Shown piece by piece: positions 44,550 through 59,395 of a stretch of DNA of 63,286 nt. Both the position numbers and the translations under genes were made by a program. Origin of the DNA: Kamptonema formosum PCC 10802 (GTDB taxonomy: Bacteria > Cyanobacteriota > Cyanobacteriia > Cyanobacteriales > Oscillatoriaceae); contig NZ_KB235948.1 in the NCBI RefSeq assembly GCF_000332335.1, positions 4,086,611-4,149,896 of the forward strand. Reading direction: 5' to 3'. Each line of letters starts with the position of its first letter. Position 1 is the stretch's first letter. The notes beneath the pieces were generated by a model. It was given only the letters and a program-made list of their open reading frames with translations, had not been told where the DNA came from and did no database searches.

Positions 44550-44762
44550 GAGTTTTTGGGTGAGTGGGGGGGAATGAACCGCCTTAGACGCCAAGACGCC
44601 TAGAGGGGATAGAAGAGAGGCAGAGGGAAGTTCGCTCTCAGTCAAGTTTACTTTTTTAGGGTATCTTATAGGAAGATTCTGCTGTTCCGCTCTATGGCGC
44701 GGGCCAAGAGGGCAGCCAGACTCTAGTAGTGTTTTCAGTAGAGGCAAATTTTGGTGAGTTCC

Positions 44763-45419
44763 ATGCAAGTAACTACTGAACAAAATATTTATCCTTCAAG
44801 TGACGGTCAGCCGATGGCGGATAGCACAATACAGTACCAGTGGATAACCACGATTAAAGGCGGTTGTGACGCCCTGTTCAAAGACATCGAGAATGTGTTT
44901 GTCGCGGGAGATTTGCTCTGGTATCCGGTGGAGGGAAACCCGAATATCTGCCAAGCGCCCGATGTGATGGTGGTGTTTGGCAGACCCAAGGGAGACAGGA
45001 AGTATTACGGACAGTGGCTAGAGGAGAATATAGCGCCGCAAGTGGTGTTTGAGGTGCGCTCGGAAAGCGACATCCAGATAAAGATGGATAAGAAATTCGC
45101 ATTTTACAGTCGCTACGGAGTGGAGGAATATTACCTGTATGACCCAAAGGATAGGGAGTTGAGAGGGTGGCTGCGCACGGAGGGAGTGTTAGAGGTGATT
45201 GACCCAATGGCGGGGTGGGTGAGTCCGCGTTTGGGGGTGCGGTTTGAGTTGGGTAAGGAGGGGTTGGAGCTCTACACTCCCAATGGGGAACAGTTTCTTG
45301 ATTATCTGGACCTGTATGAGCTGAAGGAGTTGGAACGAGAGCAAAAGGAGTTGGCGGAACAGCGAGCGGAACGATTGGCGGCGCAGTTAAGAGCTGCTGG
45401 GATTGAACCGGAGGTGTGA
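44763..45419 (+). CDS. Uma2 family (DUF820) putative endonuclease
   Basis: About 218 residues. The PD-(D/E)XK-like Uma2 fold is suggested by APDVMVVFG, IAPQVVFEVRSESD and the FAFYSRYGVEEYYLYD segment. A charged C-terminal helix (LKELEREQKELAEQRAERLAAQLRAAG) is typical. These genes are present in dozens in cyanobacterial genomes and their role is not settled. ATG 44763 is chosen over TTG 44751. It opens the divergent strand next to thiL. Confidence 0.9.
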   Translation: MQVTTEQNIYPSSDGQPMADSTIQYQWITTIKGGCDALFKDIENVFVAGDLLWYPVEGNPNICQAPDVMVVFGRPKGDRKYYGQWLEENIAPQVVFEVRSESDIQIKMDKKFAFYSRYGVEEYYLYDPKDRELRGWLRTEGVLEVIDPMAGWVSPRLGVRFELGKEGLELYTPNGEQFLDYLDLYELKELEREQKELAEQRAERLAAQLRAAGIEPEV

Positions 45420-45451: not shown

Positions 45452-45505
45452 GGCAGGTTGAAACCTGCCGCTATACAGACAAAGCCCGCCTGCGCGGGCT
45501 AAATT
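45452..45505. repeat. Dispersed GCCCGCCTGCGCGGGC repeat
   Basis: GGCAGGTTGAAACCTGCC palindrome, CTATACAGACAAA, then GCCCGCCTGCGCGGGC hairpin. Same layout as near 52.9, 59.35 and 63.2 kb. Confidence 0.85.
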
Positions 45506-46207: not shown

Positions 46208-47398
46208 ATGGGGGAATGGTGTAAAAAGCTACAATCTGCAAACATGGACTTTTTTGAGATTGCGGGTGAGCCAGAAAGCCGGTATGATCGGCACTATTTA
46301 ATAGACTGGTGGGATCAGGGAAGGCTGAAAGTGGCCAGAGTGCTGGTTGCCGGTGCCGGTGCTTTGGGCAACGAGGTGCTGAAAAATTTGGCGCTGGTGG
46401 GTGTCGGAAATATCACCGTCATTGACTTCGATACGGTTTCGATTACCAACCTGACTCGCTCGGTTCTATTTCGGGAGTCGGATGTGGGCGTGCCAAAAGT
46501 AGAGGTGGCGCGTCAGCGGGCGCTTGAGATTAATCCAGAGATAGCGATTCGGGCCATTTACGGCGATTTGGAATTTGACCTGGGGATTGGAGATGTTCGG
46601 GAACATGATATTATTATTGGGTGCTTGGATAGCGTGAATGCGCGGTGGGCGATTAACCAGATGGCGTATCGTGCCGGCATTCCCTGGATTAATGGCGGGA
46701 TTGGTGTGGCGGAGGGGGAAGTCAGTTTTTTTGACCCCAAGACTGAGGCGGCTTGTTACGAATGTACGATTTCTCAGCAGATGTGGGAGCGGCGCAACCA
46801 GCGATACTCCTGTCAGGGGATGAAACGGGATATCCCGGAAGCGGCGATGCCAACAACCGCGACGATTGCCTCAATTGCCGGTGCCATGCAGGTTCAGCAA
46901 GCGCTATTATATATACACGGTAAAACGGGGTTGTTGAATGCGGGGGAGAAGGTTTTTGTGGGGTTGAACTCTTGGACAGCTTTTAAGGTAGAAATTCAGC
47001 GACAGGAGGATTGTCTCGCCCACGACATGACTGTTGAGCCGAGCCTGCGCGTCAAGTACGAGCCAAATCTCAGGGTTCGAGAGATTCTACAAAATCTGGA
47101 GGAGTCTGGGTTTTCCGAGCCGGTGCTCTGGCTGCGCAATGAAGTGATAGGGATGATGCGATGTCTGAATCCAGATTGCAGTCACGAAGAGCGAGTGAAT
47201 GCTCCTCTGCGCCAATACCCAGAAGCCAAGCGGGCTTGTCCGAGATGCGAGAGCGAGCGAGATTTTGAGGCGATCGGGAATCTGTCGCTAGAATCTCGTG
47301 CGGATATTACCCTGGGAGAGTTATGCCTGACGGCGAACGAGATTTTGCACTGCGAAACCGCGAAAGGTCAAATAGCAATACAATTTTGCCAAGCCTAG
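46208..47398 (+). CDS. E1-like (ThiF family) ubiquitin-like activating enzyme
   Basis: 396 residues. The adenylation domain shows GAGALGNEVLKNLALVG (49-65), DFDTVSITNLTR (73-84) and the MPTTATIASIAGA segment (214-226). Cys183 and Cys186 form one CxxC pair, and CPRC (about 343-346) with the earlier CLNPDC forms another; zinc binding is likely. Cys202 in RYSCQGMKRD sits where E1-type enzymes of E2-containing operons carry the thioester Cys. It should adenylate the UBL encoded next and pass it to the E2. ATG 46208 has an AAGG site; Met13 (46244) is an alternative. First gene of the cluster. Confidence 0.9.
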   Translation: MGEWCKKLQSANMDFFEIAGEPESRYDRHYLIDWWDQGRLKVARVLVAGAGALGNEVLKNLALVGVGNITVIDFDTVSITNLTRSVLFRESDVGVPKVEVARQRALEINPEIAIRAIYGDLEFDLGIGDVREHDIIIGCLDSVNARWAINQMAYRAGIPWINGGIGVAEGEVSFFDPKTEAACYECTISQQMWERRNQRYSCQGMKRDIPEAAMPTTATIASIAGAMQVQQALLYIHGKTGLLNAGEKVFVGLNSWTAFKVEIQRQEDCLAHDMTVEPSLRVKYEPNLRVREILQNLEESGFSEPVLWLRNEVIGMMRCLNPDCSHEERVNAPLRQYPEAKRACPRCESERDFEAIGNLSLESRADITLGELCLTANEILHCETAKGQIAIQFCQA

Positions 47399-47406
47399 GA
47401 GGAAAC

Positions 47407-47667
47407 ATGGCTGATTCACTTTCTTTGATTATTCGCACGGCTGATAGCACCCGTAAAAATGGCGTTAATCTGCCGGCAACTCTCACAATTGGACAGCTTT
47501 TGCAAGCGGCACAGCAAAAGTGGAATCTGCCGGCAACTTCTGACTATGCTGTCCGTTTAGAGCGAACAGGTCAACAGTTAAGCCCTTCAGCAACTCTTGC
47601 TGCAGGGGGAGTTCAGATGGATGATGTTCTTACGGTTTTCCCGATTATTGAGGCTGGGCAAAAATGA
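47407..47667 (+). CDS. Small ubiquitin-like protein (YukD/UBL type)
   Basis: 86 residues with a beta-grasp pattern: SLSLIIRTAD strand, a TIGQLLQAAQQKW helix, then YAVRLERTGQQL and a VQMDDVLTVFPI final strand. It ends EAGQK, with no di-glycine; a single Gly84 lies two residues from the end. ATG 47407 is fixed by a GGAGGAAAC site; a longer in-frame start at 47323 lies inside the E1 gene. The stop overlaps the E2 start (ATGA), showing tight coupling. It is the presumed modifier of the system. Confidence 0.85.
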   Translation: MADSLSLIIRTADSTRKNGVNLPATLTIGQLLQAAQQKWNLPATSDYAVRLERTGQQLSPSATLAAGGVQMDDVLTVFPIIEAGQK

Positions 47668-48200
47668 GCGTGCGAGAAAAAAGACTCGAAAATGAATTTA
47701 AGGCGCTGTCCGAATTAGTCGCTAATTCAGGAGGGACGCTGGCGATTGTTTCAAAGAGCGGCAATCCGCCGTATCAATATGTCATCGAATATCGCTGCCG
47801 GGGAATAGAGCGGTTGCAGGGAAACGAGCCGGTATTCCGAGACACTCACCGGGTAGAAATTACTCTGGGCAGCAATTATCCAAAAGAAAAACCAGCGGTT
47901 AAATTTCAGACTCCCATTTTCCACCCCAATGTTTGGGAGGATCGGAATGTCTGTATCGGCAGTTATTGGATAATGGCGGAAACCCTGCCTGAACTGGTTC
48001 TCAGAATTGGCAAACTTATTCAGTATGCGGATGACATAACTAATTTGGATAGTCCAGCTAACTCGGCAGCCAAAACTTGGGCAGCCAGTAATAGGGGGCG
48101 GTTTCCGGTGGACACTCAGACATTCAAATCCCAAATTCTTTGGGACGATACGCCCCCGTCTAGTGGTGGGGGAGTAAATATTTCTTTTCTAGACTTATAG
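47664..48200 (+). CDS. E2-like ubiquitin-conjugating protein
   Basis: 178 residues with a clear UBC fold: HRVEITLGSNYPKEKPAVKFQTPIFHPNVWEDRNVCIGSYW. HPN at 87-89 and Cys97 match the E2 HPN motif and catalytic cysteine. The N-terminal helix and beta-meander are present. A tail of about 40 residues with a Ser/Gly-rich end (PPSSGGGVNISFLDL) follows the core. It should take the UBL from the E1 as a thioester. It overlaps the UBL gene by four bases. Confidence 0.88.
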   Translation: MSVREKRLENEFKALSELVANSGGTLAIVSKSGNPPYQYVIEYRCRGIERLQGNEPVFRDTHRVEITLGSNYPKEKPAVKFQTPIFHPNVWEDRNVCIGSYWIMAETLPELVLRIGKLIQYADDITNLDSPANSAAKTWAASNRGRFPVDTQTFKSQILWDDTPPSSGGGVNISFLDL

Positions 48201-48210
48201 GAGGACAGTC

Positions 48211-49647
48211 ATGGCACGAGGGCCAGGTTTACCAGATTTCCCCGGAGGCAATAACCCTATCCGGAGGACTCCAGGTTCCGAGCAGGAGAACCAAATTATC
48301 TGGGGGGAAGAGTGTGAGGATGTTTACAAGCCAATCCTGAAGTCGATTCGGGAATTTATAGCTGAGCGTGGCATCAGTAATGAAGTCAGGCCAGTCAGGG
48401 AAGTCTATATAAAAGAGGATGCCCTTGCTAATCTGAAATCGCATTTAGCGTCGAATCTAAGAGTCGAGCAAGGCGGCATACTTTTGGGTAACGCCTACAG
48501 AGATACGCAGAATGGGATCTATGTGGAGATTACGGCATCAGTAGCCGCCCCAGCAACGATTGGGACGGGAGCGCACCTGGAATTCACGCCTGATTCCTGG
48601 CAAGGAATTATGGATTATGCGAGAGCCGCACATCCCCAGGAAAATATTGTGGGCTGGTATCACTCGCATCCGAGTATTGGCGTGTTCATGTCAGGAACAG
48701 ATATGAACACTCAGCGGGCATTTTTCTATCACCCTTGGTGTTTGTCAATTGTTTGCGATCCTGTGAGAAAGCAGATTGGATACTTTTTGGGGAAAGAAGC
48801 AGTATCAGTTAACCCATTTATATTGAGGAGGGTTCCAGAGTCGGGGCTGCCGGGATATCCGGAGCCACAGGACATGTCGCGTACCGACTATATAACCAAT
48901 ATGTCGCTCCCACAAGGGTTTCCAACATCGAAGATTGACTGGATAGAAAATCCCGACAGCAAAACTGAAGGCGCGACTGATGCGACTCCGAAAAATCCAA
49001 TAACTAGAAGATCGCCAGAGACATCCAGCAGGCAATTTATACTCCCCGCCGCAATACTCTTTGTCTTGCTGGGGGCAATTATTTTCATCCAGTTGAGAAT
49101 CCTATTTCCCGCAGCAATAAGTAGTCAATCAGCTCCCGCCTTCAGTGTTCGGTATATGAGCATGCCGGCAAGGGTACTTTCTCAGTTTAAGGATAATCCA
49201 GACATCCTGCGCTATAAGATTGTAAAGGCGGGGGATAAAATTGGTACAGGAGATGAAGTCACTCTGCTGGTTATCTCGCCCGCAGGTCAGGAGAAGGTTG
49301 ACGATGTTCAGTTGGAGGTAGAGCAAGTTGTCCCGACTCAGGATGTGGGAGTTGAAAATTACGTTAAAATTAAGGAAGAATCCCTCACAGAGACTAATTC
49401 AACTAAGCAGTTGCAGTTAGTTCGTCTTGATTCTTTAAACCCAGGAGAAGGGGTACTGGTTCCAGTCTTTAGTTCTAAAATGTCCAGCTCCCCGGCTTCC
49501 CAAGATTCTGAACAAGCAACACAGCCTAAAAGAGTGGTGCGTGAGATTGTTTATATTCCGCGCCGGCTACTCTATAAAGACAGCAGCCAAAAGCAGCAAG
49601 AAATGGACTTAAAATATGTCCTAAAAAATGCCTCAAAATCAAAATAA
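48211..49647 (+). CDS. Membrane-anchored JAMM/MPN (Mov34) peptidase
   Basis: 478 residues. The JAMM zinc-protease motif is complete: Glu86, then His151-x-His153-(7)-Ser161-(2)-Asp164 in WYHSHPSIGVFMSGTD. Such enzymes trim UBL precursors or remove UBLs from targets. Residues 276-300 form a transmembrane helix (FILPAAILFVLLGAIIFIQLRILF), followed by about 175 residues of unknown fold rich in beta strands. The catalytic part should face the cytoplasm and the tail the other side. An AGGAGG site lies just upstream, ten bases after the E2 stop. Confidence 0.9.
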   Translation: MARGPGLPDFPGGNNPIRRTPGSEQENQIIWGEECEDVYKPILKSIREFIAERGISNEVRPVREVYIKEDALANLKSHLASNLRVEQGGILLGNAYRDTQNGIYVEITASVAAPATIGTGAHLEFTPDSWQGIMDYARAAHPQENIVGWYHSHPSIGVFMSGTDMNTQRAFFYHPWCLSIVCDPVRKQIGYFLGKEAVSVNPFILRRVPESGLPGYPEPQDMSRTDYITNMSLPQGFPTSKIDWIENPDSKTEGATDATPKNPITRRSPETSSRQFILPAAILFVLLGAIIFIQLRILFPAAISSQSAPAFSVRYMSMPARVLSQFKDNPDILRYKIVKAGDKIGTGDEVTLLVISPAGQEKVDDVQLEVEQVVPTQDVGVENYVKIKEESLTETNSTKQLQLVRLDSLNPGEGVLVPVFSSKMSSSPASQDSEQATQPKRVVREIVYIPRRLLYKDSSQKQQEMDLKYVLKNASKSK

Positions 49648-49660
49648 TGGCTGAGGCGGT

Positions 49661-50110
49661 ATGGGCTGCTTAATTATTGTATGCCTTTTGCTCGGTTTTG
49701 CGCATCCAGGATGGTGGGTAGCAGCATTCGTCTTAATGATTATTACTGGCAATTCCCAGTCTTCCTCATCTTCTTCAAGCGGAAGCTCCTCTTCGAGTGC
49801 TCCATCATCTGCAACTGCTACCCTCTCTCCACCGGCACCTGACGATCTGGACAACCTGCTGGTGGATATTAGCAGAGGGCAAATAAAAGATCCTGTCACT
49901 CAAGAGATATTTCAGCCCGGGCAAAAAGTCTACTTGTGTTACACTCACCGGCTCGCCTATCACGAGGACAGCTGGAAAGAAATGGAATGCAAGTGTATGG
50001 TGTGCAACCATGATAGAATGGTCAAGGCTCACATATTGCCGGTTCCCATTGATTTTAAGAAAAGGGACTTGGCTAAGGAATTAGGCATTGAGTTTAGGGA
50101 TCTGGAATAG
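49661..50110 (+). CDS. Membrane protein with RING/U-box-like Cys/His module, paralog A
   Basis: 149 residues: an N-terminal transmembrane segment (about 3-29), a poly-Ser linker, the shared PDDLDNLL motif (60-67) and a metal-binding-type module DPVTQEIFQPGQKVYLC. The ligand candidates are Cys93, His96, His101, Cys110, Cys112 and Cys115. The DPVT start and C-x2-H-x4-H-x8-C-x-C-x2-C pattern recall RING/U-box or treble-clef folds. In a UBL operon an E3-like role is attractive, but this is inference. It starts 13 bases after the JAMM gene. Confidence 0.8.
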   Translation: MGCLIIVCLLLGFAHPGWWVAAFVLMIITGNSQSSSSSSSGSSSSSAPSSATATLSPPAPDDLDNLLVDISRGQIKDPVTQEIFQPGQKVYLCYTHRLAYHEDSWKEMECKCMVCNHDRMVKAHILPVPIDFKKRDLAKELGIEFRDLE

Positions 50111-50125
50111 TCAGCCACTGGCAGT

Positions 50126-50605
50126 ATGACAGAGTTAGCGATCATAGGATTGGTATTAATGGCGATTCTTGGCGCAGTTATCTACGCCAAGAACCGCTTT
50201 CTCCCGCCCTCAAACAGAAACTTTCTAAGAACTTCATCTCCTCCTGAGCGAAACACGCCTCCTTCCCTGACAGGAGATGAGCAAATTGTATGGAGAGACA
50301 TAAATGTCCCTGGAGATGCCGGTGAAATTGAATGGTTTGAGCTTGAGCCAGGGGACGATACCCCTGTTTATGAGCCTTTCTTGGACCCAGATGTACCTGA
50401 CGATCTAGATAACATATTAAGGGAGGTGATAGGAACAAAAGACCTTTGCAGTCAGGAGAGATTTCATCCAGGGGAAAAGGTTTACTTGTGCCGGCTGCAC
50501 AAACTAGCCTATCACGAGAACAGCTGGAGATACTTGGGATGTCAGTGTCCAGTGTGTGGGAGTCCCGCCCACACGGGAGATTACACTCTACCCGGTTCGA
50601 TTTAG
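50126..50605 (+). CDS. Membrane protein with RING/U-box-like Cys/His module, paralog B
   Basis: 159 residues and clearly related to the preceding protein: an N-terminal transmembrane helix (LAIIGLVLMAILGAVIYA), an acidic linker, PDDLDNIL (91-98), and a module with Cys108, Cys122, His125, His130, Cys139, Cys141 and Cys144 (KVYLCRLHKLAYHENSW, GCQCPVCG). It has one more Cys (108) than paralog A at the start of the module. It lies 15 bases after paralog A. The tandem pair suggests duplication and division of labour. Confidence 0.8.
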   Translation: MTELAIIGLVLMAILGAVIYAKNRFLPPSNRNFLRTSSPPERNTPPSLTGDEQIVWRDINVPGDAGEIEWFELEPGDDTPVYEPFLDPDVPDDLDNILREVIGTKDLCSQERFHPGEKVYLCRLHKLAYHENSWRYLGCQCPVCGSPAHTGDYTLPGSI

Positions 50606-50654
50606 TTTGAAGGGATGAGGATAAATTGCCATCTGTAAAGCCTGATAAATGCTT

Positions 50655-50660
50655 TATAAT
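50655..50660 (+). promoter_or_regulatory. Possible -10 box before the last two cluster genes
   Basis: TATAAT in a 113-base gap. No good -35 hexamer at the right distance was seen, so an internal promoter is only possible. Confidence 0.25.
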
Positions 50661-50718
50661 GGAGAGTGGGTTTGACGCCCAGACTTAAATCCAGTAAGAC
50701 TAAGCGGGGGCATGTGGT

Positions 50719-51306
50719 ATGAAAATATTGTACGGCATAGAGCCAGATTTATGTATTAGCCATCCTGAACTTGTAGCCGGCTTTGGCAAAGACCTCGTAT
50801 TGCCCAAGTATTTTTACAGTCAGCTGGCTTATCTCAAGGATGGTAATTTTCCGGCGGCTACCGAAGCCGCCACAACAATCCTGACTTCTTTAAACCGGCA
50901 ATCGGCTTCAGAGTTGCTGGTATTTACAAGCCTTGGCGGGGGGACAGTCTATTTCCACGACCAAGAACTCAACCCTGAGATCCTTGAGACAAACCGCGAA
51001 ACATTTGACATCAGAAACCCGCTAGACCGCTACTTGTTAAGTTTATTTAAGCTAGCGGAGTGTCTGGAATCCAAGGTGTTCTTTCTCCCCCAATCTGCCG
51101 GTGTGATTCGGAAATGCCTTAGCTTGCAGTTTGAGGTGGCCATTTGCGAAGATTTTTCCACTCCTGGTGAGTCGTGGTTAGCGCCTGAAATGTTAGCCGA
51201 TATCCCAGCAATGCTTGACCCACTGGCACAGGTTCAGTGGCAAGAAGATACAGATGATTTCGTGGAACAGGCAGACAGTATTCAGTGGATAGATATAATA
51301 AACTAA
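50719..51306 (+). CDS. Unknown protein sharing a C-terminal tail with the adjacent kinase
   Basis: 195 residues, soluble, with no known motif recognised. The N-terminal 150 residues have an alpha/beta look (MKILYGIEPDLC, SASELLVFTSLGG, NPLDRYLLSLFKLAECL); a PIN-like nuclease fold is conceivable but not shown. The C-terminus reads DPLAQVQWQEDTDD...SIQWIDIIN, closely matching the end of the kinase that follows (DPLSQVQWQEDSDIQWTDL). The shared tail may be a docking or substrate tag. Confidence 0.7.
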   Translation: MKILYGIEPDLCISHPELVAGFGKDLVLPKYFYSQLAYLKDGNFPAATEAATTILTSLNRQSASELLVFTSLGGGTVYFHDQELNPEILETNRETFDIRNPLDRYLLSLFKLAECLESKVFFLPQSAGVIRKCLSLQFEVAICEDFSTPGESWLAPEMLADIPAMLDPLAQVQWQEDTDDFVEQADSIQWIDIIN

Positions 51307-51340
51307 GACTGCTATAAATGGCAAACTTACCTTGTGAAAT

Positions 51341-52294
51341 ATGACTGTATGCCTCAATCCCGCTTGCCAGAATACCCAGAATTCCCAGCAGGCGCAACTG
51401 TGTCAAAGGTGTGGATCGAAATTGCTGTTAGGCGAGCGCTACCGGGCCATCAAACCCATCGGTCAAGGCGGCTTTGGCAGAACTTTCTTGGCTGTGGATG
51501 AGCACAAGCCATCCCAACCGCACTGCGCAATTAAGCAGTTTTTACCCCAAGATCAAGGCACCGGCAATGTTCAGAAAGCTGCTGAGTTATTTCGCCGAGA
51601 AGCAGTGCGACTGGATGAGTTAGGCAACCATCCCCAGATTCCGGAACTGCTAGCGTACTTCACCCAAGACGGGCGACAGTATTTGGTGCAAGAATTTATA
51701 GAAGGGGACAATCTCGATCAGGAATTAGCAGCCCAGGGGGCTTTCACGGAAGCCAAGATTTTGGAAGTCCTCAATGACTTGCTGCCGGTGCTGCAATTTA
51801 TACACAGCCATCAAGTGATTCACCGGGATATCAAGCCGGAAAATATCATTCGCCGCCGTGAGAACCGTCAGCTCATTTTAGTCGATTTTGGTGCTTGTAA
51901 GTTTGCCCCCGGCACACCGGCAAAACCCGGTACAGTAATTGGAAGTGCTGGGTATGTTGCTCCAGAACAAGCTGTAGGTAAAGCAGTTTTTGCCAGCGAT
52001 ATATACAGTTTAGGCGTAACCTGCGTTCATCTGCTGACTGGAATTCCCCCCTTTTCCCTGTTCAACAGTCGAGAAGGCATCCAGGGGTGGCGGAATTACT
52101 TAGGTGAAAATCCAGTCAGCAGTCAGTTAGGTCGGCTTCTGGACAAGCTTGTGGAAATTCCCATCCTGCATCGCTATCAATCAGCGGCGGAAGTTCTCAC
52201 AGACTTACAGACGCCGGTGCTTGAGCCAGATCCCCTCTCACAGGTTCAATGGCAAGAAGATAGCGATATCCAGTGGACAGACTTAACCCGTTGA
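51341..52294 (+). CDS. 4-Cys Ser/Thr protein kinase
   Basis: 317 residues. The N-terminal zinc ribbon has Cys4, Cys9, Cys21 and Cys24. The Hanks-type kinase follows: glycine loop GQGGFGRT (41-48), Lys65 in AIKQF, HRDIKPEN from 161, DFG at 182-184, and the APEQAVGK segment. Cyanobacteria have several such 4-Cys kinases without a transmembrane helix. The C-terminal tail is shared with the preceding 195-residue protein. It probably phosphorylates a component of the same cluster; that is inference. Confidence 0.92.
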   Translation: MTVCLNPACQNTQNSQQAQLCQRCGSKLLLGERYRAIKPIGQGGFGRTFLAVDEHKPSQPHCAIKQFLPQDQGTGNVQKAAELFRREAVRLDELGNHPQIPELLAYFTQDGRQYLVQEFIEGDNLDQELAAQGAFTEAKILEVLNDLLPVLQFIHSHQVIHRDIKPENIIRRRENRQLILVDFGACKFAPGTPAKPGTVIGSAGYVAPEQAVGKAVFASDIYSLGVTCVHLLTGIPPFSLFNSREGIQGWRNYLGENPVSSQLGRLLDKLVEIPILHRYQSAAEVLTDLQTPVLEPDPLSQVQWQEDSDIQWTDLTR

Positions 52295-52797: not shown

Positions 52798-53184
52798 AAA
52801 ATCACATCACAGAAACGACTGGTATTAAATAGTGGATTCATACGTCTTATATTAGGTCGGGTTAATTAACCTCAAGAAAAGTTAGCCCGCGCAGGCGGGC
52901 TTTGTCTGGATAGCGGCAGGTTTTAACCTGCCGTATTGTGGGTATATAGCCCGACATGATATTCCCCCACACTTGCATTGAATAGTCTTGCCTTATATGC
53001 CCCCTCCCCCTTTTTGGAACCGGGGACAGGCGAGACGCCTGTCCTACGCCGAAATTCCCGTTTTGGGGACAGGCGAGACGCCTGTCCTACGCCAAAAGGC
53101 CCGTTTTTTGGACAGGCGAGACGCCTGTCCTGCTCTTATTCCCCCTCTGCGCACGCGGAGAGGGGGTTAGGGGGTGAGGTTCCC
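52798..53184. other. Non-coding gap with repeats
   Basis: About 390 bases. It includes a GCCCGCGCAGGCGGGC element (about 52882-52935), three GGACAGGCG palindromes (53024-53130), and a CCCCTCTGCGCACGCGGAGAGGGGG palindrome-like stretch near 53145. Confidence 0.65.
53024..53130. repeat. Three GGACAGGCG palindromes at 43-bp spacing
   Basis: GGACAGGCG-AGA-CGCCTGTCC occurs at 53024-53044, 53067-53087 and 53110-53130, separated by diverged 22-base spacers. Confidence 0.9.
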
Positions 53185-59337: not shown

Positions 59338-59395
59338 GACTGTAAGTCGCGGCTATACAAACAAAGCCCGCCTGCGCGGGCTATAACAGATTGTA
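59338..59395. repeat. Dispersed repeat GCGGCTATACAAACAAAGCCCGC type
   Basis: CCGGCGACTGTAAGTCGCGG palindrome, then CTATACAAACAAA and GCCCGCCTGCGCGGGC. A related copy lies at about 59487-59535 in the opposite orientation. Confidence 0.85.

Follow-up and report, generated by a model that had tools for sequence, protein, structure and literature searches.

An operon-specific short motif recurs across the proteins of a bacterial ubiquitin-like conjugation cluster

What might hold together a bacterial conjugation system for a ubiquitin-like protein (UBL) when its adenylating enzyme, its E2, its protease, its membrane proteins, and its kinase are all encoded by separate genes? This question is raised by eight co-directional open reading frames (ORFs) at positions 46208-52294 of a 63,286-nucleotide stretch of the genome of Kamptonema formosum PCC 10802 (contig NZ_KB235948.1, positions 4,086,611 to 4,149,896). 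The whole stretch is hereafter called the window, and coordinates are positions within it. A first-pass annotation had described the ORFs as a cluster encoding an E1-like enzyme, a UBL, an E2, a JAMM/JAB peptidase (JAB), two membrane proteins (R1 and R2), an unassigned protein (U), and a kinase (K). All eight were located as claimed, on the plus strand, and this earlier interpretation is, overall, partly supported. In addition, a short motif of the form [IVL]-x-[WF]-x-[DE] recurs in the tails or linkers of six of the eight proteins (E2, JAB, R1, R2, U, and K). We lean slightly toward the view that the genes make up a complete bacterial cluster for UBL conjugation and deconjugation, and that it is held together by this shared short linear motif, which would dock on the UBL.

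The six carriers contain 12 copies of the motif in 1,476 amino acids, against 2.7 expected. Two of the 12 (JAB 242 and U 77) lie outside the conserved places, and the excess is partly circular because the motif was defined on these proteins, so that tests on other loci weigh more. The UBL has no copy, and E1 has no tail motif and three matches inside its ThiF region. The tail shared by U and K that had been noticed in the first-pass annotation is real, but it extends to six proteins, and its cluster-wide character had been missed. A DNA pattern for tandem copies, which admits only [VI]xWx[DE] units spaced by 3-33 bases and does not cover the F and L forms, has three matches in the 8.59-Mb genome, all of them in the cluster (R2, U, and K); a reversed-pattern control has five. 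The genome also holds 78 K-like matches with E-values of 1e-30 or lower, a count that takes in K itself and two fragments of a single frame. K aside, none of them has a tandem match. The two closest relatives of K, 69-70% identical, align with it only to residue 290-292, before the tail. In two structure models, the motif regions of U and R2 have predicted local distance difference test (pLDDT) scores of about 50 or below.

The enzymes that carry or accompany this motif are of recognizable families. As first read, the E1 nucleotide motif is intact (VAGAGALGNE), the E2 has His87-Pro88-Asn89 and Cys97 in place (with no variation at H87 or C97 among 10 aligned E2s), and the JAMM motif is complete (Glu86, His151, His153, Ser161, and Asp164). 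Among Pfam families the UBL matches YukD (0.0019) and Rad60-SLD (0.0027), both below the cut-off. A profile from a 12-row UBL alignment reaches single ubiquitin-like chains in the PDB from E 4e-4, with polyubiquitin stronger, and a profile from the E2 alignment reaches UBE2B, UBE2A, and Rad6 among PDB sequences from about E 1e-14. The proposed ubiquitin-like fold of the UBL and UBC fold of the E2 are thus backed by profile searches. The C-terminal Gly-Gly attributed to the UBL is not there; the protein ends EAG-QK, with one glycine, and most UBLs of the same operon type (type A, below) end PxLEAG. The first six genes are as tightly spaced as had been noted, with 8 bases between E1 and UBL, a 4-base overlap of UBL and E2, and then gaps of 10 (E2-JAB), 13 (JAB-R1), and 15 bases (R1-R2). 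Wider gaps of 113 and 34 bases separate R2 from U and U from K. Because most homologue ORFs begin at 46244, E1 probably starts there and not at 46208, as first annotated. Since E1, UBL, E2, and JAB with their catalytic residues occur in one operon, the window genes are, judged by sequence, a UBL conjugation operon, for which covalent UBL transfer is predicted.

Evidence from related operons was gathered in two ways: by searching 84,980 species genomes with a pattern-based method, which spans all species and reaches close relatives only, and by whole-genome sampling confined to Cyanobacteriota. The former found 13 E1 relatives, of which eight are near full length, four are partial (loci L025-L028), and one is distant (L029). 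The eight and the four are all cyanobacterial, and E1 is 72-80% identical across the eight. With an alignment search, E2 proteins of all operon types were matched at E 0.001 in 15 of 386 genomes sampled from the phylum and in 30 of 388 sampled from the order; they were also found in all five genomes of one family related only at the phylum level. Among phage records, 16 had E1-type matches, each covering less than 80% of the query.

Twenty non-redundant type A loci were then compared, the window included and both the phylum-level family and the decayed loci L025 and L028 excluded. Thirteen of these have the full set of E1, UBL, E2, JAB, R, and U. The remaining seven comprise two at contig ends (L088 and L089), one without U (L093), and four that are incomplete or decayed (L019, L026, L027, and L095). 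Where R occurs, it is present in one to three copies. A separate gene for the tailed kinase is present in the window only, and in two other loci (L020 and L092) the kinase is fused to U. Therefore, the eight-gene set suggested by the first reading is not conserved as such, while the six-gene core is. In the decayed locus L028, on a Cuspidothrix contig, one ORF (L028:8001-8468) joins an E1 N-terminus to a U-type tail bearing two motifs, apparently through a deletion.

The motif keeps its places across these loci. In type A operons it was found in the C-terminal 32 amino acids of 19 of 21 E2s, in the linker of 21 of 21 JAB proteins, at the C-terminus of 12 of 13 U proteins, and anywhere in 26 of 30 R proteins, and it is present also in the family related only at the phylum level. 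Of 299 background ORFs, 22 have a C-terminal copy and 22 a copy within the first 90 residues, and eight of the 22 C-terminal matches belong to accessory proteins of such operons. Other operon types carry strings of their own. In type B, a type IV secretion system (T4SS)-type ATPase (recognized by Pfam in L097) has LNWRD-like tail repeats, three in L037 and four in L097 counting LTWRD; most E2s end LNWR, the JAB sequence opens with LQWRD or LKWRD, and two copies lie in a third protein. Nearly all copies in type B2 (L039 and L098) are basic (VKWHK, VRWHK, IKWGK, and IRWRR). Two further types have other strings common to the E2 tail and the JAB linker (KFxIQ-like in one, KLNIKRL/KFQIRRL in the other).

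To quantify this agreement, the best 6-residue similarity between E2 tail and JAB linker was compared with that obtained over 20,000 permutations of partners. Across 37 operons, true partners scored 21.65 against 18.05 +- 0.56 for permuted ones (p=5e-5), with 0 of 20,000 permutations as high, and when scores were averaged by type the matched pairing ranked 1 of 120. With type C left out and close relatives thinned, the scores were 22.07 and 18.10 +- 0.68 (n=27, p=5e-5, rank 1 of 24); leaving out type C without thinning (n=33) or with thinning to n=18 gave the same p and rank. The JAB proteins of types A, B, B2, and D showed no E2-like part, and common descent therefore does not readily explain the match.

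Several side observations concern these operons. One of the related UBL operons, L106 (NC_019754.1), is of type B and includes a T4SS-type ATPase; it is carried by a mobilizable plasmid, pCRI9333.03, in Crinalium epipsammum PCC 9333. Three operons (L096, L098, and L103) have two UBL genes, one copy lacking the terminal glycine; in L103 the other copy also lacks Gly-Gly. When tandem tags were sought genome-wide in 14 type A genomes, several were near the control level. A tandem pair in genome G603, within a 4,774-amino-acid ORF, was dropped as chance. In the genome of L092, a 257-amino-acid ORF outside the operon (L138:1485-2258) has ISWQERPRPRIYWQDL near its start and is a possible further tag carrier.

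How could such a cluster operate? JAB would process the UBL precursor so that it ends in the C-terminal glycine (the window UBL ends EAG-QK, and some relatives end EAG) and would also take the UBL off its targets. The UBL would be adenylated by E1 and then transferred to Cys97 of E2, with the membrane-anchored R proteins as putative E3-like scaffolds. Each carrier would offer one or two beta-strand-like motif copies, which would bind the UBL non-covalently by adding a strand, in the manner of the SUMO-interacting motif (SIM) on SUMO and the LC3-interacting region (LIR) on Atg8. In this way, free or conjugated UBL may bring together at the membrane the E2, the protease, the E3-like scaffold, the kinase, and U as a PIN-fold adaptor, and the tandem motifs of R2, U, and K would favor clustered or chained UBL. 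The data establish which genes are present, their families or folds, their conservation, the recurrence of the motif and its agreement within operons, and the low model confidence of the motif regions in two models; we infer that the UBL is the receptor, that binding is by strand addition, that R has E3 activity, and that the kinase is the output, as well as any physiological role. Docking on the UBL appears the most likely reading because the UBL alone must meet E1, E2, protease, and ligase and itself has no motif. In its broader form the proposal is a motif code: each operon type would place its own strand-forming motif in E2, protease, E3-like scaffold, and effectors, and would thereby read its own UBL non-covalently, as a bacterial counterpart of SIM and LIR. 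Effectors such as the kinase, the PIN-fold protein, the conjugation ATPase, and TPR (tetratricopeptide repeat) scaffolds would join by gaining the tag. We give this broader form even chances.

A number of results weigh against docking on the UBL and against the code. A control segment of E2 (residues 31-62) gave p=0.06 in the matching test, and composition may therefore contribute to the E2/JAB match. When operons were tested singly by shuffling, only 10 of 37 fell below p=0.05, and in several the best pair is not the motif. Paired with the long linkers of type C, the E2 tails of type B reach 19.7, above the 17.9 that they reach with their own. Moreover, in L038, L040, and L094 part of the type C JAB protein is hit by the E2 profile as well, which suggests a fused E2-like domain; the type C linker match may therefore be descent from an E2 tail, and for this reason type C was dropped in the repeated test. 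The operons are mutually related, so there are fewer independent cases than their number, and there are exceptions: L104 has mixed motifs, the E2 tail of L101 is weak, and the E2 of L020 lacks the acidic residue. The strict LIR core (W/F/Y-x-x-L/I/V) is present in only 6 of 10 window motifs, and E3 activity of the R proteins, although plausible, is based on a weak fold match. Finally, charge covariation was considered as proof of UBL docking and rejected. The charge of the motif runs opposite to that of the UBL beta1-beta2 region (rho -0.60, 35 rows), and the beta2 window RKNGVN gives -0.81, the most negative of 77 UBL windows; yet windows in E1 and E2 reach about -0.80. The charge test therefore cannot discriminate between receptors, and phylogeny explains much of the signal.

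Among the alternatives, the best survivor is compatible with UBL docking. It holds that the cluster serves anti-phage defense like the Bil system, conjugating its UBL to virion proteins, and that the motif only tunes the cascade. The same kinds of enzymes are present in Bil, as far as the sections of PMC11354881 consulted describe it. The patchy distribution of E2 in the phylum and order and the relative on a mobilizable plasmid favor conflict or mobility, whereas presence in all five genomes of one phylum-level family looks more like a core function. The PADLOC defense-model matches (best 25 of 33 for E1) are to generic E1-E2, E2, JAB, and kinase models. K matches the PADLOC model PD-T4-6 at E 4e-130, and in a genome with 78 similar kinase matches this model need not be specific. 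We regard a defense role as possible, though short of probable.

It is distinctly less likely that the motif docks on another common partner, most plausibly E1 or an R scaffold, giving an E1-centered complex. E1 does occur in the same operons and also lacks the tail motif, its windows show charge correlations as strong as those of the UBL, and its C-terminal Cys pairs are zinc-ribbon-like by eye. However, nothing is known that would make proteases, kinases, or PIN adaptors depend on E1, and the R proteins are themselves motif carriers. The glycine-less second UBL copies mentioned above are, in turn, consistent with a non-covalent role of the UBL.

We consider it improbable that the motif is homotypic, with strands of different proteins stacking on one another as in amyloid-type signaling motifs or effector-associated domains. 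Several proteins of an operon do share one motif that is matched within and not between operon types, as is the case for homotypic motifs. Against this, the motif has only 5-6 residues and is not N/Q/G-rich; in addition, type A copies are acidic and B2 copies strongly basic, so that the stacking of like with like is electrostatically unfavorable. Recurrence through coincidence or the biased composition of disordered tails, to which the shortness of the motif, the single-operon tests, and the control segment lend something, is very hard to reconcile with the fixed places of the motif across loci, the permutation result that persists after thinning, and the confinement of the genome's tandem matches to the cluster.

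The earlier description of a distinct, membrane-linked cluster is supported: hydropathy places a transmembrane (TM) segment in R (23 of 25 proteins) and in JAB (9 of 16). The claim that the cluster has its own E3-type parts is plausible, but the R module, considered for a canonical cross-brace with two zinc sites or a U-box, has a weak U-box/RING fold match, and R1 and R2 have no family match at the Pfam cut-off. In four loci (L017, L021, L022, and L024), R is fused to TPR arrays. CHIP is a ligase that joins TPR to a U-box, and these fusions recall its architecture. An ORF of an operon of the plasmid type (L096:11713-12111) is built like R2 but in the opposite order: its Cys-rich part, which is weakly Prok-RING_1-like, is accompanied by two WRD motifs and by a C-terminus that is hydrophobic. 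U has a PIN fold and no Pfam family, and neither U nor R has convincing sequence relatives in the PDB. At the second acidic position of the PIN site, U has an invariant Gln35 (by eye in an alignment of nine), and the protein is probably catalytically degenerate. The signaling parts proposed at first are supported as far as the kinase goes, since the U-kinase fusions of two loci bear the same tail. Many of the 78 K-like matches in the genome sit in much longer open frames.

Coordinates of the eight genes and of the motif copies in their tails and linkers are collected in Table 1. Upstream of the cluster, at 44751-45419, lies a gene for a putative endonuclease of the Uma2 family. Dispersed intergenic repeats at 45478-45501, 52883-52906, and 59360-59383 match the Rfam model CRISPR-DR28, and two repeats of this type flank the cluster in opposite orientation. 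Because they occur in single copies, they are probably not a CRISPR array.

Table 1. Genes of the UBL conjugation cluster and their motif copies, in window coordinates (AF2, AlphaFold2)
Feature	Position	Strand	Basis or remark
E1-like adenylating enzyme, ThiF family	46244..47398	+	ThiF E 1.5e-54 (Pfam)
UBL, 86 aa, C-terminus EAG-QK, motif-free	47407..47667	+	weak YukD/Rad60-SLD; alignment profile matches ubiquitin
E2 (HPN, Cys97)	47664..48200	+	UQ_con 2.3e-10 (Pfam)
E2 tail motif ILWDD	48135..48149	+	
E2 C-terminal motif ISFLDL	48180..48197	+	
JAMM/JAB peptidase, TM segment near residue 273 (hydropathy)	48211..49647	+	JAB 3.5e-11 (Pfam)
JAB N-linker motif IIWGEE	48295..48312	+	
R1, TM and Cys/His U-box/RING-like module	49661..50110	+	alignment with R2
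R1 C-terminal motif IEFRDL	50087..50104	+	
R2, TM helix 2-24, low-confidence linker 28-87, folded module 92-159	50126..50605	+	AF2 model; weak U-box/RING match
R2 linker motif IVWRDI	50285..50302	+	genome-wide tandem match; mostly pLDDT below 50
R2 linker motif IEWFEL	50327..50344	+	genome-wide tandem match; pLDDT about 50
U, PIN fold with disordered tail, catalytic site probably degenerate	50719..51306	+	
U tail motif VQWQED	51232..51249	+	tandem match; pLDDT below 50
U tail motif IQWIDI	51280..51297	+	tandem match; pLDDT below 50
K, 4-Cys-prefix Ser/Thr kinase, HRD and DFG present	51341..52294	+	Pkinase 1.6e-39, 4Cys_prefix_kin
K tail motif VQWQED	52244..52261	+	tandem match
K tail motif IQWTDL	52268..52285	+	tandem match

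How does the cluster compare with systems already described? Prokaryotic operons combining E1, E2, JAB, a YukD-like Ubl, and RING were reportedly described by Burroughs, Iyer, and Aravind in 2011, and the window would resemble them in that a single operon unites a standalone E1, a UBL with a weak YukD match, an E2, JAB, and a RING-like gene. That E1, E2, JAB, and UBL operons exist in bacteria, as had been stated, is well documented, and the enzyme set is of this known kind (Iyer et al. 2006; Kaur et al. 2020; and Bil). Like the cluster, Bil encodes a UBL, an E1, an E2, and JAB in one operon. In the sections of PMC11354881 consulted, BilA has two UBL domains, and BilD combines an inactive with an active adenylation domain, whereas the window has one UBL of 86 amino acids with one domain, one ThiF domain, and additional membrane, PIN-fold, and kinase genes. 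The FtsH ternary systems with a Ubl tri-ligase also have E1, E2, JAB, RING, and UBL, with EAD1-UBL-E2 as one protein beside vWA, MoxR, and FtsH genes, according to the parts consulted of Kaur et al. (2020; PMC7159879). In the window, UBL and E2 are separate ORFs. Loci L041 and L105 resemble that type, with EAD1, YukD-like, and UQ_con domains in one protein in L041, and there E2 and JAB have a different matched string. Classes 6a-6e of Iyer et al. (2006; PMC1779556) are E1-JAB-E2-UBL neighborhoods predicted to be signaling systems. In the portion consulted, they are mostly E1-JAB or E1-E2 fusions or poly-UBLs, with separate JAB, UBL, and E2 in 6d, in contrast to the cluster, where all genes are separate and kinase, PIN-fold, and RING-like genes are added.

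The closer parallel for the motif is eukaryotic. SIMs and LIRs lie in disordered regions and combine a hydrophobic or aromatic core with acidic residues, as the consulted parts of two papers put it (PMC12751080; PMC12582063), and the autophagy E2 Atg3 has a WEDL motif for its own UBL, Atg8 (PMC8255673, likewise consulted in part). The cluster motif joins the hydrophobic core and acids of a SIM with, in 6 of 10 copies, the W/F-x-x-L/I/V core of a LIR. It differs in being present in nearly all enzymes at once and in varying by operon type, and its binding to the UBL is proposed here. A 2025 review states that no known prokaryotic system has the SIM-binding groove of SUMO, and no report of motif-based recognition in bacterial UBL systems was found by title and abstract, within an incomplete coverage of the literature. 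The cascade itself is ordinary; the shared operon-specific tag appears to be new.

If the motif binds the UBL, then bacteria read UBLs non-covalently through short motifs, and the origin of recognition of the SUMO and Atg8 type would become directly testable with peptides of five residues. The operon tag may also serve as a practical key, since proteins that bear the tag of a given system are its predicted partners.

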